Below are positions 22,572-29,956 of a stretch of DNA of 64,000 nt, piece by piece; position 1 is the first letter of the stretch, and every line of letters begins with the position of its first letter. Location: NCBI RefSeq assembly GCF_021088345.1, contig NZ_CP088156.1, forward strand, positions 6,749,001 to 6,813,000, given 5' to 3'. The translations under genes were made by a program, and so were the position numbers. The stretch is from Bradyrhizobium ontarionense (GTDB lineage Bacteria; Pseudomonadota; Alphaproteobacteria; Rhizobiales; Xanthobacteraceae). The notes below the pieces were generated by a model that ran no database searches, was not told where the DNA came from, and saw only the letters and a program-made list of their open reading frames with translations.

Positions 22572-25500
22572 ATGAGCCATCCGGTGATCATGCGGCCCAG
22601 CGAGGCCAACTCCATCGATCGCATCTCGCCGATCGGCGGCGCCGACCACGGCGTGCGCCTGCTTGGACCCATCGGGGCCGGTGGGGCGCCGGCGGCGGAG
22701 ACCGAGTCGTCCGCGGACCATTGGGAATCAGCTGTGGCCGCATCGTTCAACGCGGGACCGGTCGTCGATCCCCTGCAGAACGTCCTCGGCTGCCTGACCG
22801 AAATCATTCGCTCCGAGCGGTCTCCGGCCGAACGCCCGTCGGATCATCCGTTCGCTGACGATCATGGCCTCGCTCTGCACCAGGAGGAGCTCGAGAGCCT
22901 GCCGGGCGTGGTGCTCAACACCTTCGACGTCGACGGTCCGGTGTGGCTCGCGGTCGAGGCGCTCACCGCGACGGAGCCCCCGGCGATCGATTCCGATCTC
23001 GAGATGTGGGTCGAGCTGTCCTCCGATCCGGATCGGCGTCCGATGCCGCGCGACAACGTGGTGGTCACGGTCGACGAGATCGAGAAGAACCGCCTCACCT
23101 TTGCCCGCCATGCGCGGCCCGAAGATTTTTCGCCGGCTGCGTCGCACGACGCCGGCGCTGGCGCCTGGTCCGGACGGCTGCGGCTGGAGCAGCGCACGGA
23201 CCTCGTCCATCGGATCGAGCGCTACGTTGCCGGGCCGTGGACCGCGTGGGCCGAAACCGAACGCGCGCGTCGCCGCACCATGGCAATCCACCAGCGCCTG
23301 TCTGAGATGGCCACTGCGCTCGATGCCGATCTGACCAAGGAGATCATGTGGGGCATCGCGCTGTCGTCATGGCGGTACGGCGGGCGCCAATTCGAACTGC
23401 CGTTGTTCGAGCGCCCCGTCGAGATCGAGATCATCGAACGTCCCGATGCTGAGATCAGAATCCGGCCGCGCTTCGTCGGAGCGGCCGTCAATCTCAGGGC
23501 GCTCGAGGCATTGGCACCGGACGCGGCGCTTGCCTTGTGCCACAAGTCCGAACGCTTGATCGAGGCGCTCGAGCAGCGTGGTGAACTGTCGCCGTTCACG
23601 CCGATCGGCCTCGAGCAGATCCTGAACGCGGTTGGTGCGCAGCCCGGGCAGAAGGCGATCCGGGGCCTTGCGGCATCGGAAGACGCGCCACCTTCGGACG
23701 CCGGCGACCCCTCGGTCGCGGCGGGACGCTGGGTGATATCAGCGCGGCGGCGGCCGGAGAGCCTGGCCTTGCGCGACATCGATTGCCTGAAGAACGCGAT
23801 CGAGCATGCGCCGCAGAGCGAGTGCTGCCTGTCGGACGCAGTGGAGGGGCTGCTGGCGCAGCCGAACGGCAGGGGGCACGCCAGTGCCCGCCGGCACCTG
23901 TCCAGCATCGTCGGCGGCCCGATCGACATTGCGCCTGCACCCAAGCCCGACCTGGCCGATCAAGGCGATCTGTTCTTCCCGCTGCCGGCCAGCATCGAGG
24001 ACGTCGAGGTCGTGCGCGAGCTCTCGCGATCGGATGGCCTCGTGGTCCAGTCCGCCGGACGCGACGAGCGGATCACGACGCTCGTCAACATCGTCTGCCA
24101 TCATCTCGCGCTCGGCTCGCGCATCCTCGTCGTGTCGCGCGACGAGACCGCGCTTTCGCTCCTGCATCAGAAGCTGCCGTCGAGCATCCGCGAGCTGACG
24201 GTCAGTTCGACCGGCTCAGACAAGGACGTGCTCAGGAAAGCCGAAGCGCTGGCGAGCCGCTTGCAGCCGCTCCTGGACACGACCAACCTGCGCGACCATG
24301 CCGGTCAGATCGGCCGGCTGGAACGCGACATCATCTCCAAACGCTCGCAGATTGCATCGCTCGACGATGAAATCGCCGACATCGTCCGGCGCAATCTGCG
24401 GCTGGCCGGCAGCGTGCCGGAGCTGTCGTTCGAACTGATCGAGGGGCTGGTCACCGGCCAGGACGTGTATTCCTGGTTCACCGACCGTCCGATATGTCTG
24501 CTCGCCAACACGGCGCCTCTGGTTGCCGCGGTGGACGAGGCGGGCGAGGCGCGACGTCGGCTCGCCGGGCGTCTCAAGCACATCGACGACGACTTGCCTG
24601 AGATCGCGACGCTTCCCGACGCAGCGGCGATTCTCGCCCTGCACGAGGAGTTGCGGCAGCAGGCCGGGCTGTCGTCCGACGAAGGCCGCGACGAAGACCT
24701 TGCGCTCGACGCCATCGCGATGTTCGGACTGGACGCAACCAGCAGGTTGGCGGCCGATCTCGATGCGCTGGTCTCGGCTCATCGCGCCATCGCCGACCAG
24801 GCCTGGCTCGCACGGCTGTCGCCGCTCGGTACCGGCAAGACTGACGTTTCCCCGGGTCTCGACAAGGTCGTGGGTTGGGCGCGCGACGCCTCCTTCCAGC
24901 TGTCCAGAAGCGCCGAATTCGCCAAGCGACAGGTGCAGGCGCCGGTCGAACTGTTCACCAAGCGAGACGCGATCCGTGTCGTCGAGCGGCTCGCGGCCGG
25001 CGAGAAGGCATTTGCGCGATTCTCCCCATCGCGGCGCGGCCTGAAGGCCGCCATAGAGGCGATCACGGTGGACCGCGTTGCACCGTCGACGCCGGCCGAC
25101 TGGCGGTATGTCGGCCGCTTCCTGCTCTGGCGTCATGACCTACATTCGCTGCGGACGCGATGGACATCGATTGCGACGAGGATCGACGCGCCGGCGGTTC
25201 AGCTGGAATCGGCGCGGGCGTTCGACGACCTGGAGCGCGTTGTCAGGGGTGTCGAGGCCGCGATCGTGACGGCCGCACTCGCTGTCCGCAACGTCGTCGA
25301 TGCCTGCCGCAAGCTGTCGATGCCGGATAGCGAGATCGACGCGATGCTCGCGGACGTGCAGCGGCCGACGGCGTTCGGCGCGGCCATCCGGAGCGTCATG
25401 AAGCGCGTGTCGGGGCCGCTGGTCGAGCTCGCGCGGCTGGGCGAATTGTTCGCCGGAGCAGGCGAGCTGGCTGCTTCCGTTCAGGCCGATGTTCTCTCGC

Positions 25501-27797
25501 AGATCGGCGATCCCGAGGTTGATCCACAGCGGCTCGAGGCGCGCTGGGCGGGCGTTCTCGCAACCATGGACTCGATCGCGCAGGCCCGCGGTGACTACGA
25601 GCTCGTCAGAACGGCGTGCCGGATGGCGATCGAGGCGGGGGCGCCGGATCTCGCCCATCGGCTCCGCACCGAGCCGGCAATTCGCGGCGCCGAGGACACG
25701 GTGCCGCGCTCGGACTGGGTGACAGCCTGGAACTGGGCCGTGCTGATGCGGATCGAAAATCCCGATGAGCGGCAGCTGCTGTACGACCTCTCGGCTCAGC
25801 GTCATCGCCTGGAGAAGCGATCGCTGGCGCTGTTCGAAACCGTGATCAGCGCGCGGATGACGCTCGGCATCGCGCAGAACGCGAGTGGCCCGGTCAGGCA
25901 GTCGCTCAAGCGGTTCAAGGACACGATGCAAAAAATGGCGTCGGCGTGCTCCGGCCCGACCGCGCGCCGGCTTCGTGTCGCTGCCCGCAGCTCTCTGGAC
26001 GGCTGGCTCGAGGACGTCCCGTGTCACGTCATGCCTGCATGGCGCGTCGCCGAGCTGCTGCCGGCTCGGATCGGCACTTTCGATCTGCTGGTCGTCGATC
26101 ATGCGTCACGCTCGGATCTGCGCGAACTGACGGCCATGCTGCGGGCCCGCAAAGTGCTGATCAGCGACGAGCGTCGCGATACCGGCCGCAGCGAGCTCGT
26201 CCGCAACGAAGTCGGCATCGAACCGAAGAACCTGCGTGGCATTCCTCCCGCGCTTCGTCGATTGCTGCTGCCGGATGCCTCATTGCGTGATTTCGCCGAA
26301 ATCCTGTTCCCGGAGCGCATCGTCGAGATTCGCCCGCGCAGCGGCGACGTCGAAGCCGCCGCGATCGGTGCTTCGCTGCAGCCTGAACGGTCCGAGACGG
26401 TCGACGCCCTGACACGGGAGGCGCCGAAGCCGAAGCGGACCGACGCGGTCGCAACGAAGCGTCGGGCCCCCCCACTGCCGAAGGCCAATGCAGCGCATAC
26501 ACTCGAGGATGAGATCGCGACGTTGGCGAAGTATTTGTCGCTCGCCCGCCGGTCCGGAACCGAGCTCGTCGCCAAGGCGGGCGCGGTGATCGATGGCCCA
26601 ACCGCGCAACGGCCCGAGGCCCGCCCGGCCATGCCCAAGGCATCGCCGGAGGTCCGTGTGCTGCGCCGGCGCCCGCCGCGCGTTGCGGCGACGGAGGCCG
26701 TCATCCTCCCAGCGCAGCCCGAACGTCCGCTCGCGGTGCTCCCGCCGGCGGCGGTCGTGCCGGCCAAGCCTGATCCTGCCGCCGCTCGCCCAAACATCGT
26801 GGTCGATCCGCAGGTGATAGCCGATCAGCCGGATCAGAAGGGACCCAGTCCCGTCATCGAGGTGGCGGTCGAAGCGGTCGTCAAGGAGGTGCCGGCGAGC
26901 ACGGAGCCGGCGAAGCAGCCGGAGCCGAGTGCGGCCCCGGCAGAGAGCAAGATTCATCCGTCGCTGCTCGAGATGGCGTTCAAGGCGGTCGAGGACACCG
27001 CGAAACCACGCCGTTATTTGTCCCGCCGGCGCGTGATGGCCGTTGCAGCGGTTGGCCTGTTGGCGATCGCAGGCGTCGCGGCCGCCTATTGGGAGCGGGC
27101 CCCCGAGTGGGGCCAGGTGTTGGTGAGCAGTGCCACGCCGGCCTCGGCACAGCCCAGCGAGCCAGCGCCGCGCACGGTCGGCGCCGAACGGATCATGCCT
27201 GACGGCAAGCAGGTCGTCGCCAGCGACGATCACGCCACCGTCGGACAGGCTGCGGCGGCCGTGGCAGCTCCAGCGCAGGCGTTCCTCTATCACGAGGATC
27301 CGCAGGATCCGAAAGGCAAGCGCTTCTCCGGCAAGGTGACCTGGTCGCTCGAACAGAGCAAGGGTCCCCGCCTCGATTCATCGCCCGTGATCAAGGGAGA
27401 CATCGAGATCGAGAATGGCATGAAAGTATCGATGACGCTGCGGCGGAACGGCGATCTGGAGCTGCCGGCGAGCCACGTCATGGAGCTGGCGTTCAACTTG
27501 CCGGATCAGGCTGCGGGCGGGCTGTCGAGCCTGAGAGGCGTCGGACTGAAAGGCGAGGAGACGGAGCGTGGCATCGCGCTGGCCACTCAGACCGCGAGGG
27601 TGACACCGAAGTTCTTCATGATCGCGCTGTCGGCCAACGACGTCGATACGAAGCGAAACATGATGCTTCTGACGAGCAAGAAGTGGTTCGATATTCCGAT
27701 CGTGTACGAGACCGGCAACCGGGCACTGTTGTCGATCGAGAAGGGGGGCGACGGCGAGCGTGTATTCAACAACGCAGTCGCCGCCTGGGGTCAGTGA
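22572..27797 (+). CDS. Giant membrane-anchored protein with degenerate superfamily-1 helicase-like core
   Basis: The protein has 1741 residues from the ATG at 22572. Residues about 190-510 resemble large superfamily-1 helicase-like ATPases of the COG1112 type: PWTAWAETERARRR, a WGIALSSWR block, then LFFPLPASIEDVEVVREL. Where that family has Walker A (G-P-P-G-T-G-K-S) this protein has QSAGRDERIT (residues 493-502), lacking the Gly-Lys-Thr. The Walker B-like FDLLVVDHAS (1170-1179) has His in place of the catalytic Glu, and the following motif reads KVLISDERRD. The second RecA domain is absent. Instead there is a Pro/Ala-rich linker (about 1300-1460), one membrane helix (about 1488-1508) and a globular end domain (about 1570-1741) that is probably periplasmic. 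It is followed 32 bp later by the FGE-like gene. Function unknown. Confidence 0.7.
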   Translation: MSHPVIMRPSEANSIDRISPIGGADHGVRLLGPIGAGGAPAAETESSADHWESAVAASFNAGPVVDPLQNVLGCLTEIIRSERSPAERPSDHPFADDHGLALHQEELESLPGVVLNTFDVDGPVWLAVEALTATEPPAIDSDLEMWVELSSDPDRRPMPRDNVVVTVDEIEKNRLTFARHARPEDFSPAASHDAGAGAWSGRLRLEQRTDLVHRIERYVAGPWTAWAETERARRRTMAIHQRLSEMATALDADLTKEIMWGIALSSWRYGGRQFELPLFERPVEIEIIERPDAEIRIRPRFVGAAVNLRALEALAPDAALALCHKSERLIEALEQRGELSPFTPIGLEQILNAVGAQPGQKAIRGLAASEDAPPSDAGDPSVAAGRWVISARRRPESLALRDIDCLKNAIEHAPQSECCLSDAVEGLLAQPNGRGHASARRHLSSIVGGPIDIAPAPKPDLADQGDLFFPLPASIEDVEVVRELSRSDGLVVQSAGRDERITTLVNIVCHHLALGSRILVVSRDETALSLLHQKLPSSIRELTVSSTGSDKDVLRKAEALASRLQPLLDTTNLRDHAGQIGRLERDIISKRSQIASLDDEIADIVRRNLRLAGSVPELSFELIEGLVTGQDVYSWFTDRPICLLANTAPLVAAVDEAGEARRRLAGRLKHIDDDLPEIATLPDAAAILALHEELRQQAGLSSDEGRDEDLALDAIAMFGLDATSRLAADLDALVSAHRAIADQAWLARLSPLGTGKTDVSPGLDKVVGWARDASFQLSRSAEFAKRQVQAPVELFTKRDAIRVVERLAAGEKAFARFSPSRRGLKAAIEAITVDRVAPSTPADWRYVGRFLLWRHDLHSLRTRWTSIATRIDAPAVQLESARAFDDLERVVRGVEAAIVTAALAVRNVVDACRKLSMPDSEIDAMLADVQRPTAFGAAIRSVMKRVSGPLVELARLGELFAGAGELAASVQADVLSQIGDPEVDPQRLEARWAGVLATMDSIAQARGDYELVRTACRMAIEAGAPDLAHRLRTEPAIRGAEDTVPRSDWVTAWNWAVLMRIENPDERQLLYDLSAQRHRLEKRSLALFETVISARMTLGIAQNASGPVRQSLKRFKDTMQKMASACSGPTARRLRVAARSSLDGWLEDVPCHVMPAWRVAELLPARIGTFDLLVVDHASRSDLRELTAMLRARKVLISDERRDTGRSELVRNEVGIEPKNLRGIPPALRRLLLPDASLRDFAEILFPERIVEIRPRSGDVEAAAIGASLQPERSETVDALTREAPKPKRTDAVATKRRAPPLPKANAAHTLEDEIATLAKYLSLARRSGTELVAKAGAVIDGPTAQRPEARPAMPKASPEVRVLRRRPPRVAATEAVILPAQPERPLAVLPPAAVVPAKPDPAAARPNIVVDPQVIADQPDQKGPSPVIEVAVEAVVKEVPASTEPAKQPEPSAAPAESKIHPSLLEMAFKAVEDTAKPRRYLSRRRVMAVAAVGLLAIAGVAAAYWERAPEWGQVLVSSATPASAQPSEPAPRTVGAERIMPDGKQVVASDDHATVGQAAAAVAAPAQAFLYHEDPQDPKGKRFSGKVTWSLEQSKGPRLDSSPVIKGDIEIENGMKVSMTLRRNGDLELPASHVMELAFNLPDQAAGGLSSLRGVGLKGEETERGIALATQTARVTPKFFMIALSANDVDTKRNMMLLTSKKWFDIPIVYETGNRALLSIEKGGDGERVFNNAVAAWGQ

Positions 27798-27829
27798 GCG
27801 GATTGGCAGCGTCGCGAGATGAGGACAGC

Positions 27830-29326
27830 ATGAGCGAGAGTTCAGCGTTGCAGTGGCTGCGAGCCCCCAGGCTTGCCGAGGATACTCTGCCGAACGACGC
27901 GGTCACGGTCGACTGCAAGCGGTGCGGCCGCTCGGTGCAGGTTTCCCTCAGCCCGATGCGTCCGTCATGCTTCCTGCACGTCGACGATCAGGTCGAGTGT
28001 CCCGAAGTCCAGGAGCGCTGGACCGGGAACGGCGACGGCGGGCTCCTGCTGATGATGTGCGGCGCGTTGGAGCGGTCGCTCGACGCCGATTGGGAGGCCG
28101 AGGAAGCCGCGGTCGCGGCAAGGCACGCTCCGGCGCCGGTCGTTCCCCCCTTGCATCCACGCTCCGCGCCCGAGCGCGCGGATGCAGAGTCGTGGAACGA
28201 CGATCAGGGGGACGAGCAGGATGATGCGGGCCGCATCGGTTGGCTGCATGGGCTGTTCGCAAGGATCGGTCGTCCAGGAAAGCGCCATGTCCGCACCGCC
28301 ATTGGCGTCGTTTCGCTCATCATCGTAGTCCTCGGTGGCCTGGTGCTGCCATTCCGCGAAATGAAGCTCCTGATCCAGTCTCAGCCGGGGCCGGCGGGGG
28401 CTTCCAATCTGCAGAGGGATGCACTTCCCGTCACCTCGCCTCGACGGATCGCGACGGAAACCGCGAGCAGTGCTGCCTCGACGCAGGAGATGCCGCTCGG
28501 CGCAAGGTCGGTGTCCAACTCCGCTGCCGTGCCGCGCCAGCCACCGGCAATGGAGACGGCACCGTCGAAGCTCTTGGCTGAGGCCACCGCATCGTTACAG
28601 ACGGCGATGGCGGCCCAGTCCGCTGCGGGACCGGCGCCGAAGCTGCGCGCACCCGAGATGGTCCAGATCGCCGGCGGCACGTTTGCCATGGGCGGCGATG
28701 ACGATTCCGAGCAGCCGGTCCACCAGGTCAGCATCCGGTCCTTCGCCCTCGGTAAATATCCGGTGACGGTCGGGGAGTGGAAGCAGTGTGTCGCCGCCGC
28801 AAGCTGCGCCGACATCGCAGCGGGCGCCGACGATCGCCCGGTCGCCAATGTGAGCTACGACGACGCGCAGGCCTATCTCGCATGGCTCGCCAAGGTCACC
28901 GGCAAGCCGTTCCGGTTGCCCAGCGAGGCGGAGTGGGAATATGCCGCGCGCGGCGGACAGCGCAGCAAATATTGGTGGGGCGATCGCATGCGCTCCGGCA
29001 TGGCCAATTGCAAGGGATGCAACAACAACAATGATGCTGCGGAGGCGGCGCAGCCGCTGAAGGTCGGCAGCTTCCAGCCGAATTCCTTCGGCCTGTTCGA
29101 CATGGGAGGCGGGGTCGGCCAATGGGTCGCGGACAACTGGCACAAGAACTACAAGGGGGCACCGGCCGACGGCGCGGCATGGCTGGAGGAGGGCAACTAC
29201 GCCCGTGTCATCCGCTCGGGGTCGTGGACGAACGGGCCGGCCGATGCGCGTGCGGGCAGTCGCGATCGCTATGACGGCCGCATCAGACATCCGACGCTGG
29301 GCTTCCGCGTCGCCCTCTCACCATAG
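27830..29326 (+). CDS. Membrane-anchored formylglycine-generating-enzyme-like (SUMF1/FGE-sulfatase domain) protein
   Basis: From the ATG at 27830 the protein has 498 residues. The N-terminal part has four cysteines (C29, C32, C47, C57; CKRCGRS first) that could bind zinc. One membrane helix follows at about 156-174, then a disordered Ala/Ser/Pro linker and an FGE-sulfatase domain at about 276-498 (MVQIAGGTFAMGGD, FRLPSEAEWEYAARGG, RVIRSGSWTNGP, GFRVALSP). In true formylglycine-generating enzymes the copper-binding cysteines lie in the stretch after the GSW motif; here that stretch (ADARAGSRDRYDGR) has none, so oxidase activity is unlikely. The usual VWEW is changed to VGQW. The domain should be periplasmic and may bind ligands or peptides. 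It probably acts with the large protein encoded upstream. Confidence 0.82.
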   Translation: MSESSALQWLRAPRLAEDTLPNDAVTVDCKRCGRSVQVSLSPMRPSCFLHVDDQVECPEVQERWTGNGDGGLLLMMCGALERSLDADWEAEEAAVAARHAPAPVVPPLHPRSAPERADAESWNDDQGDEQDDAGRIGWLHGLFARIGRPGKRHVRTAIGVVSLIIVVLGGLVLPFREMKLLIQSQPGPAGASNLQRDALPVTSPRRIATETASSAASTQEMPLGARSVSNSAAVPRQPPAMETAPSKLLAEATASLQTAMAAQSAAGPAPKLRAPEMVQIAGGTFAMGGDDDSEQPVHQVSIRSFALGKYPVTVGEWKQCVAAASCADIAAGADDRPVANVSYDDAQAYLAWLAKVTGKPFRLPSEAEWEYAARGGQRSKYWWGDRMRSGMANCKGCNNNNDAAEAAQPLKVGSFQPNSFGLFDMGGGVGQWVADNWHKNYKGAPADGAAWLEEGNYARVIRSGSWTNGPADARAGSRDRYDGRIRHPTLGFRVALSP

Positions 29327-29341
29327 CGCGAGGAGAGCTGC

Positions 29342-29956
29342 ATGTGGCGAACGACATCCGCGCGACTTTGCCTCTTCCTGACGATGTCGCTCGCGCTCGC
29401 GCCCTCGCTGGCGTCCGCCAAGGGGACGAAGTCGCAGAAGGACGCACGCGTCTACTTCATCGCGCCGGCAGACGGCGAGACGGTGACCGGGCCGTTCGTC
29501 TGCCGCTTCGGCCTGCGCAACATGAGCGTCACGCATGCGGGGGACGATTTCGCCGGCAGCGGCCACCACCATCTCCTGGTCGATGTCGATGAAACGATGG
29601 AGGCCGGCCAGCCGATCCCGCGCGACAAGAAGCATATCCACTATGCCGCCGGCGAGACCGAGGCGCGGGTCGAGCTGTCGCCGGGCAAGCATACGCTGCA
29701 GCTCGTGCTGGGCGATTCGAAGCATCTCAACTTCGACCCGCCGGTGGTCTCCGAGAAGATCATGATCACCGTCGGCCGCCCGAATGCGTCGGAGGAGCAG
29801 GCCCGCGCGGCGAGGAAGACCAGTGAGCGGAGAAAGCTCCTGGAGCGAGTCGCGCCTGCAGAGCCGCAGCAGACTCAAGCTGATCCGACGCCAGAGATGA
29901 CGAAGTCTCCTGAGAGCTCGAACTTCCTCAGCCGCGTCCTGTCCGGGACAAAGTAG
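29342..29956 (+). CDS. DUF4399 exported protein
   Basis: The 204-residue protein has a signal peptide (residues 1-26, ASA/KG cleavage) and a DUF4399 domain at about 33-142. The domain shows YFIAPADGETVTGPFVCRFG, the HHHLLVDVDE cluster and the family end GKHTLQLVLGDSKHLNFDPP. The three adjacent histidines could bind a metal. A charged C-terminal tail of about 60 residues is probably disordered. It starts 15 bp after the FGE-like gene with a GGAGAG ribosome site, so it belongs to the same transcription unit. The role of DUF4399 is not known to me. Confidence 0.85.
   Translation: MWRTTSARLCLFLTMSLALAPSLASAKGTKSQKDARVYFIAPADGETVTGPFVCRFGLRNMSVTHAGDDFAGSGHHHLLVDVDETMEAGQPIPRDKKHIHYAAGETEARVELSPGKHTLQLVLGDSKHLNFDPPVVSEKIMITVGRPNASEEQARAARKTSERRKLLERVAPAEPQQTQADPTPEMTKSPESSNFLSRVLSGTK

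Follow-up and report, generated by a model that had tools for sequence, protein, structure and literature searches.

The closest described relatives of the protein examined here are the superfamily 1 (SF1) helicase-nucleases PDC-S37, ProA and Hhe, which are established or candidate anti-phage proteins and with which it shares an N-terminal domain and a RecA1 domain carrying a long helical insertion. Unlike these proteins, it lacks Walker A, the motif II glutamate, most of motif III and RecA2, and in place of the MTES_1575 nuclease and GreA-like tail it has a transmembrane (TM) helix and a periplasmic domain. To our knowledge, the inactivated helicases AddB/RecC, PriA and Utp25 have neither a membrane anchor nor a partner resembling formylglycine-generating enzyme (FGE). 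Helicase folds that have lost their motor have been described before. AddB and RecC have SF1 helicase domains that are inactivated and have been proposed to recognise Chi DNA (PMC4824097), and Deinococcus PriA and yeast Utp25 are described as pseudohelicases, with a helicase fold but without motor motifs (PMC4504706, PMC9539457). On these accounts, all four have in common with our protein a helicase fold lacking motor motifs; AddB has a tandem of two RecA-type domains, whereas our protein has no RecA2.

The protein is encoded in a 64,000-nucleotide stretch of Bradyrhizobium ontarionense (hereafter the window). An earlier sequence-only reading had placed a three-gene unit at 22572-29956, encoding a protein of 1741 residues, an FGE-like protein and a DUF4399 protein, and translation and Pfam searches bore out both the coordinates and the layout (Table 1). 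From its N-terminus, the large protein consists of an N-terminal domain, a RecA1 remnant, a helical insertion, a proline-rich linker, one TM helix and a periplasmic C-domain. The K/R-rich side precedes the single TM helix, so that by hydropathy and the positive-inside rule this protein and the FGE-like protein are both predicted to span the membrane with a cytoplasmic and a periplasmic part, as had been proposed. Among the frames examined, those of the group to which the window copy belongs (group A) begin with MSHPV or MSQLV. The window protein (P0001) matched no Pfam family above its cut-off, including the MTES_1575 nuclease, and its NCBIfam and PADLOC matches were marginal (12.6 bits to ProA, under the cut-off of 1500, and E 0.014 to PDC-S37); a PDB sequence search gave no hits.

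Table 1 Features of the three-gene unit in the window.
Feature	Position	Strand	Remarks
Pseudo-helicase gene, 1741 aa	22572..27797	+	Translation; 80 further homologues
RecA1, first part, residues 466-560	23967..24251	+	Median dN/dS 0.199, lowest among the group A stretches tested
Former Walker A, residues 494-501	24051..24074	+	SAGRDERI; GPPGTGKT in intact relatives
RecA1 long helical insertion, about residues 561-1110	24252..25901	+	
Former motif II, residues 1169-1180	26076..26111	+	DHAS (window copy reads VDHAS); DEAS in intact relatives
Pro-rich linker, about residues 1262-1487	26355..27032	+	Stands where RecA2 and nuclease would be
Pseudo-helicase TM helix, residues 1488-1506	27033..27089	+	Hydropathy; positive side cytoplasmic
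Periplasmic C-domain, residues 1559-1741	27246..27794	+	Alphaproteobacterial, without Pfam model; predicted fold resembles IalB
FGE-like membrane protein	27794..29326	+	Start GTG 27794 (overlaps stop of first gene) or ATG 27830
Four-cysteine cytoplasmic stretch (C41, C44, C69, C89) of FGE-like protein	27914..28060	+	Conserved in 21/21 unit members
TM helix of FGE-like protein	28298..28354	+	Hydropathy, positive-inside rule
Periplasmic FGE-like domain	28649..29314	+	Without catalytic cysteines; GNVWEW-type motif reads GGGVGQW
DUF4399 protein, 204 aa	29342..29956	+	DUF4399 match 8.7e-35

To place the protein, we listed 81 proteins including the window's own, scored from candidates of similar length that shared words with it. 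Seventy carry the membrane/periplasmic tail domain. All 70 have lost both the Walker A pattern GxxxxGK[ST] and the EHFRC motif of RecA2, and motif II DEA is lost in 64 and kept in six; the 11 untailed proteins all keep Walker A, DEA and EHFRC. The claims that Walker A is replaced, that the motif II glutamate has become histidine and that RecA2 has given way to a proline-rich linker followed by a membrane helix and a periplasmic domain thus hold for the window copy, and damage confined to this one strain, which the sequence-only reading had considered, was not seen. It is at the first motif of RecA2 that the sequences part: LKEHFRCVEP in the intact P0073 corresponds to LREHARRVDP, still present upstream of the linker, in the group B paralogue P0037 and to EIRPRSGDVEA in the window copy. 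A FastTree phylogeny with 58 rows, for which eight intact helicases picked by hand served as root, placed all 47 tailed rows in one clade (support 0.986); the intact P0073-P0075 are the sister group of this clade, and three basal pseudo-helicases are 47-53% identical to them. The basal relatives P0063-P0072 come from metagenome contigs; when 391 genomes of the family were searched for basal pseudo-helicases, the 12 matches comprised six known carriers and six intact helicases.

The relatives are Upf1/IGHMBP2-type SF1 helicases, mostly with an MTES_1575 nuclease. A Pfam scan of one intact Bradyrhizobium relative, L075, gave matches to AAA_11, AAA_12 and the MTES_1575 nuclease (114.8 bits); the best PADLOC match of L075 was PDC-S37 (5.7e-71), followed by Hhe and MkoA, and its best NCBIfam match was the anti-phage protein ProA (1.1e-71, at 241.9 bits well under the cut-off of 1500). 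P0037 still matches PDC-S37 (5.9e-14). Both descent and fusion are well supported. The ancestors of the pseudo-helicase were Upf1-like SF1 helicase-nucleases similar to the anti-phage PDC-S37, ProA and Hhe; the ATPase motifs, RecA2 and the nuclease were lost, and the remainder is now joined to the linker, the TM helix and the periplasmic domain. The loss of the motor motifs is old and inherited.

A helicase fold is predicted for the protein on the strength of structural re-alignment and sequence descent, and Foldseek alone gave no match for the helicase part at E <= 0.001, with coiled-coil proteins ranking at the top. With SF1 (Upf1/IGHMBP2-like) helicases the protein shares the RecA1 fold and common descent, and with SF1 topology, motor motifs gone and selection maintaining the protein, it is a pseudohelicase.

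Selection was estimated on the pseudo-helicase gene only, from 10 group A copies (45 pairs) and 10 group B copies. The overall median dN/dS in group A was 0.29; its folded parts ranged from 0.20 to 0.28, including 0.20 for the former P-loop segment, 0.24 for the helical insertion and 0.23 for the periplasmic domain, against 0.50 for the linker (residues 1262-1470). In group B the medians were 0.27 for the head, 0.17 for the tail domain and 0.56 for the linker. These values show purifying selection on the fused protein, also over what was once its P-loop. We then measured retention at positions invariant in seven intact helicases. With motif borders set by hand and columns that are not independent, motifs I and III together keep 3/20 invariant positions in group A compared to 112/176 in the other stretches tested (Fisher p 4e-5), and 4/20 compared to 123/176 in group B (Fisher p 2e-5). 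Motif Ia keeps 5/5 positions in group A and the helical insertion (residues 571-1100) 40 of 51. Little is left of ATPase motifs I and III, in contrast with motif Ia and the helical insertion, most of which survives. Only 7/20 positions survive after motif III in group A, which speaks against a simple story of retention. That the protein binds nucleotide without hydrolysing it, serving as a nucleotide sensor, is very unlikely: group B does keep parts of the loop (e.g. GARGPDRT, with Lys changed to Arg) and mostly the motif II aspartate, and six tailed proteins retain DEA, but group A, including the window copy, keeps just 2 of 12 motif I positions and has no glycine-rich loop.

The sequence-only reading had called for a search for the three-gene order. 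We fetched 20 Bradyrhizobium loci for holding a pseudo-helicase (nine relatives of the window's copy A, ten of copy B and the own genome's copy C), and the order pseudo-helicase, FGE-like, DUF4399 was kept in 20/20, which is more than chance would give. Among named genomes, 297 stretches encode a relative; within the best 77 of these, all ten pseudo-helicase loci carry both partners (all Bradyrhizobium, and largely the same strains as the 20 loci), and the 67 others have the P-loop pattern, a few of them fragmentary or split, with the tail domain in none and some FGE-like gene nearby in two. Across 265 Bradyrhizobium species, 16 gave a match: 11 to a pseudo-helicase, four to intact helicases and one (G156) to fragments only. 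Ten of the 11 carriers have copy A, and ten have copy B counting the metagenome-assembled genome G207, which has a B-like copy only; as no more than two candidates were scored in each genome, this search misses extra copies such as the own copy C. All ten carriers of copy A have reaction-centre genes (PF00124); G207 has none, and two of 18 other Bradyrhizobium have them. Copy A is thus associated with photosynthetic strains. The photosynthetic Bradyrhizobium clade nodulates Aeschynomene.

In the own genome, copy C (L074:4955-9762; C1:5857290-5862061) has a pseudo-helicase that is broken into two reading frames at about residue 1110; the FGE-like and DUF4399 genes that follow it are open. This split copy is what speaks for a decaying pseudogene family, an explanation we consider highly improbable, given that 19 of the 20 loci encode pseudo-helicases of 1637-1769 residues, that median dN/dS is 0.29-0.30 and that the loss is selective for motifs. 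For copies A and B, conserved length, conserved gene order, the loss of motor motifs throughout the tailed proteins and purifying selection led us to reject a pseudogene or strain-specific damage.

The same RND gene and cytochrome b561 gene flank copy A in the window and in 9/9 relatives; the own-genome copies B and C lie elsewhere, with neighbours including a secretin gene and a subtilase/RTX gene. The part of the neighbours that we scanned with Pfam is ordinary and points to no pathway. These settings bear on the idea of an anti-phage sensor or decoy, in which the dead helicase would mimic active defence helicases and act at the membrane as a trap for phage proteins or for entering DNA. The PDC-S37 and ProA scores of L075 and the residual PDC-S37 match of P0037 fit this idea, as do the TIR and caspase-like heads that share the tail (below) and a description of conflict systems with modules acquired 'typically in inactive form', one class of which has effectors that include FGE-type domains (PMC7159879). 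The fixed RND/cytochrome b561 setting argues against it, however, and neither a defence gene nor a MoxR or vWA gene was found by Pfam among the neighbours scanned; on balance we think it unlikely.

The FGE-like protein scores 181.8 bits against PF03781 (cut-off 23.3, E 2.5e-53) and 142.7 bits against PvdO (cut-off 500), and with its one TM helix and the adjoining DUF4399 protein, whose N-terminal hydrophobic leader looks by eye like a signal peptide, it agrees with the membrane-anchored neighbour described earlier. It shares the domain match with the FGE/PvdO/EgtB family (PF03781), but lacks the active-site cysteine pair, has Q for E in the WEW motif and adds the four-cysteine stretch and the TM helix. 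Active FGE is described as having a bis-thiolate Cu(I) site (PMC12123546). All 21 unit members carry the Q, and the GSW...GFR stretch contains no cysteine in any of them, nor in ten distant relatives that we aligned. We take the GSW...GFR stretch to be where the canonical FGE cysteine pair lies. With both cysteines absent in 21/21, we rejected an active formylglycine-generating enzyme. By our reading of the alignment, the Q is found also in eight of the ten distant relatives and the cysteine stretch, complete or for the most part, in six; these traits, like the cysteine loss, are not unique to the unit. With the window's cysteine stretch as query, 2 of 98 sampled Bradyrhizobium genomes matched, both of them pseudo-helicase carriers; the sample included two of the 11 carriers.

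The C-domain has a wider distribution than the pseudo-helicase and was detected in 263 of 265 Bradyrhizobium species. Most of the frames listed with it are about 530-550 residues long, and those that we read have a MADYYPL head, a proline-rich linker and a TM helix. These core proteins of Bradyrhizobium and other Hyphomicrobiales, annotated as 'hypothetical protein', have the linker, the single TM helix and a homologous periplasmic domain in common with the window protein, and differ in having a short cytoplasmic MADYYPL domain in place of the pseudo-helicase head. In the own genome, the core gene (L082:8447-10102) lies directly after purA and before a DUF5413 gene; L080, a relative of the own-genome core protein, had no Pfam or NCBIfam match. 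Other heads occur on the same tail. A TIR domain (PF13676) precedes the TM helix and C-domain in L101:5918-7348 of genome G022, directly behind a normal core copy, and was seen in this genome only (one row covering the TIR part among the rows listed for 257 genomes). A caspase-like head (PF00656, 5.9e-25) with an apparent signal peptide is encoded in the own genome at L083:8153-9727, adjoining a nicotinate phosphoribosyltransferase gene, and its catalytic His and Cys, at what we presume to be the active-site positions, are apparently replaced. By eye, relatives of the C-domain are also present in a multi-TM, O-antigen-ligase-like protein (L095:3517-5505) and a ClpP-like protein (L098:4992-6098) from other genomes of the order.

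The fold predicted for the C-domain is confident (mean pLDDT 91) and resembles that of IalB. Sequence homology to IalB was dropped: PF06776 matched 0/37 C-domain sequences, and hhalign against 13 IalB sequences, and against 30 under four settings, gave a probability of 0.3% or less; for this reason we claim only a resemblance in fold. Foldseek alone gave no match to the C-domain at E <= 0.001, and a PDB search with its profile returned two uninformative hits (E 0.74 and 1.6). In contrast to IalB, the window C-domain has no cysteine. Two open frames, 1358 and 654 residues long, each hold two IalB matches in tandem (G000:C1:4975896-4976789 and G000:C1:2055643-2056545).

The near-universal C-domain raises the alternative that it is the business end of the protein, acting in the pathway of the purA-adjacent core protein, with a head that is merely bulky or regulatory and replaces MADYYPL. 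Besides the distribution of the domain, the strong constraint on it in both groups, the shared order of head, linker, TM helix and C-domain in the core proteins examined and the TIR, caspase-like, ClpP-like and multi-TM variants are in keeping with this explanation. Yet the head of about 1250 residues shows, in group A, a level of constraint close to that of the C-domain, the own core copy is flanked by purA and DUF5413, and no FGE-like match of the own genome lies near it, so we hold this alternative to be rather improbable.

Our preferred reading, to which we give about an even chance, is that the products of the three genes form a non-catalytic assembly across the envelope, a sensor or scaffold in which the cytoplasmic pseudo-helicase would bind a ligand, most likely nucleic acid. 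The head would be a binding module at the inner membrane, most likely for ssDNA or RNA and otherwise for a protein. The FGE-like protein, whose four conserved cysteines would face the cytoplasm and whose FGE fold would face the periplasm, may serve as co-receptor or scaffold partner, and the DUF4399 protein as a periplasmic third subunit; ligand binding on one side of the membrane would alter the complex on the opposite side, in either direction. Nucleic acid is put first because of the analogy with AddB and RecC (Chi recognition), and the complete motif Ia may be a hint of nucleic-acid binding. RecA2 forms half of the usual nucleic-acid track, and its loss, together with the poor retention after motif III, counts against this explanation, as do the ordinary neighbours that indicate no pathway. 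The proposal that a helicase-like protein became an envelope signalling or scaffold component is supported to this extent, its descent and fusion being well supported and its function and signalling being what we infer. A more specific version is considerably less probable: a domesticated defence helicase acting as a transmembrane receptor that surveys nucleic acid at the inner membrane face and passes its state to a periplasmic IalB-like/FGE-like complex, as one of a modular set in which the same tail is joined to helicase-, TIR- or caspase-derived heads.

Pseudohelicases as such are already known; among open-licence papers we found none describing a membrane-spanning pseudohelicase with a periplasmic domain or the three-gene unit, and none for BRADO6305-6308, of which BRADO6307 is named in the source and the neighbouring numbers were guessed. 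The locus and its relatives provide a record of a phage-defence-type helicase becoming a membrane protein, from intact relatives through a basal group whose motifs have decayed in part to two descendants that arose by duplication. The tail to which it is joined is a large unannotated envelope domain with an exchangeable head, present in 263/265 Bradyrhizobium species. If the head binds nucleic acid, the protein, found in the photosynthetic Bradyrhizobium clade, would be a bacterial receptor of a type for which we are aware of no example.
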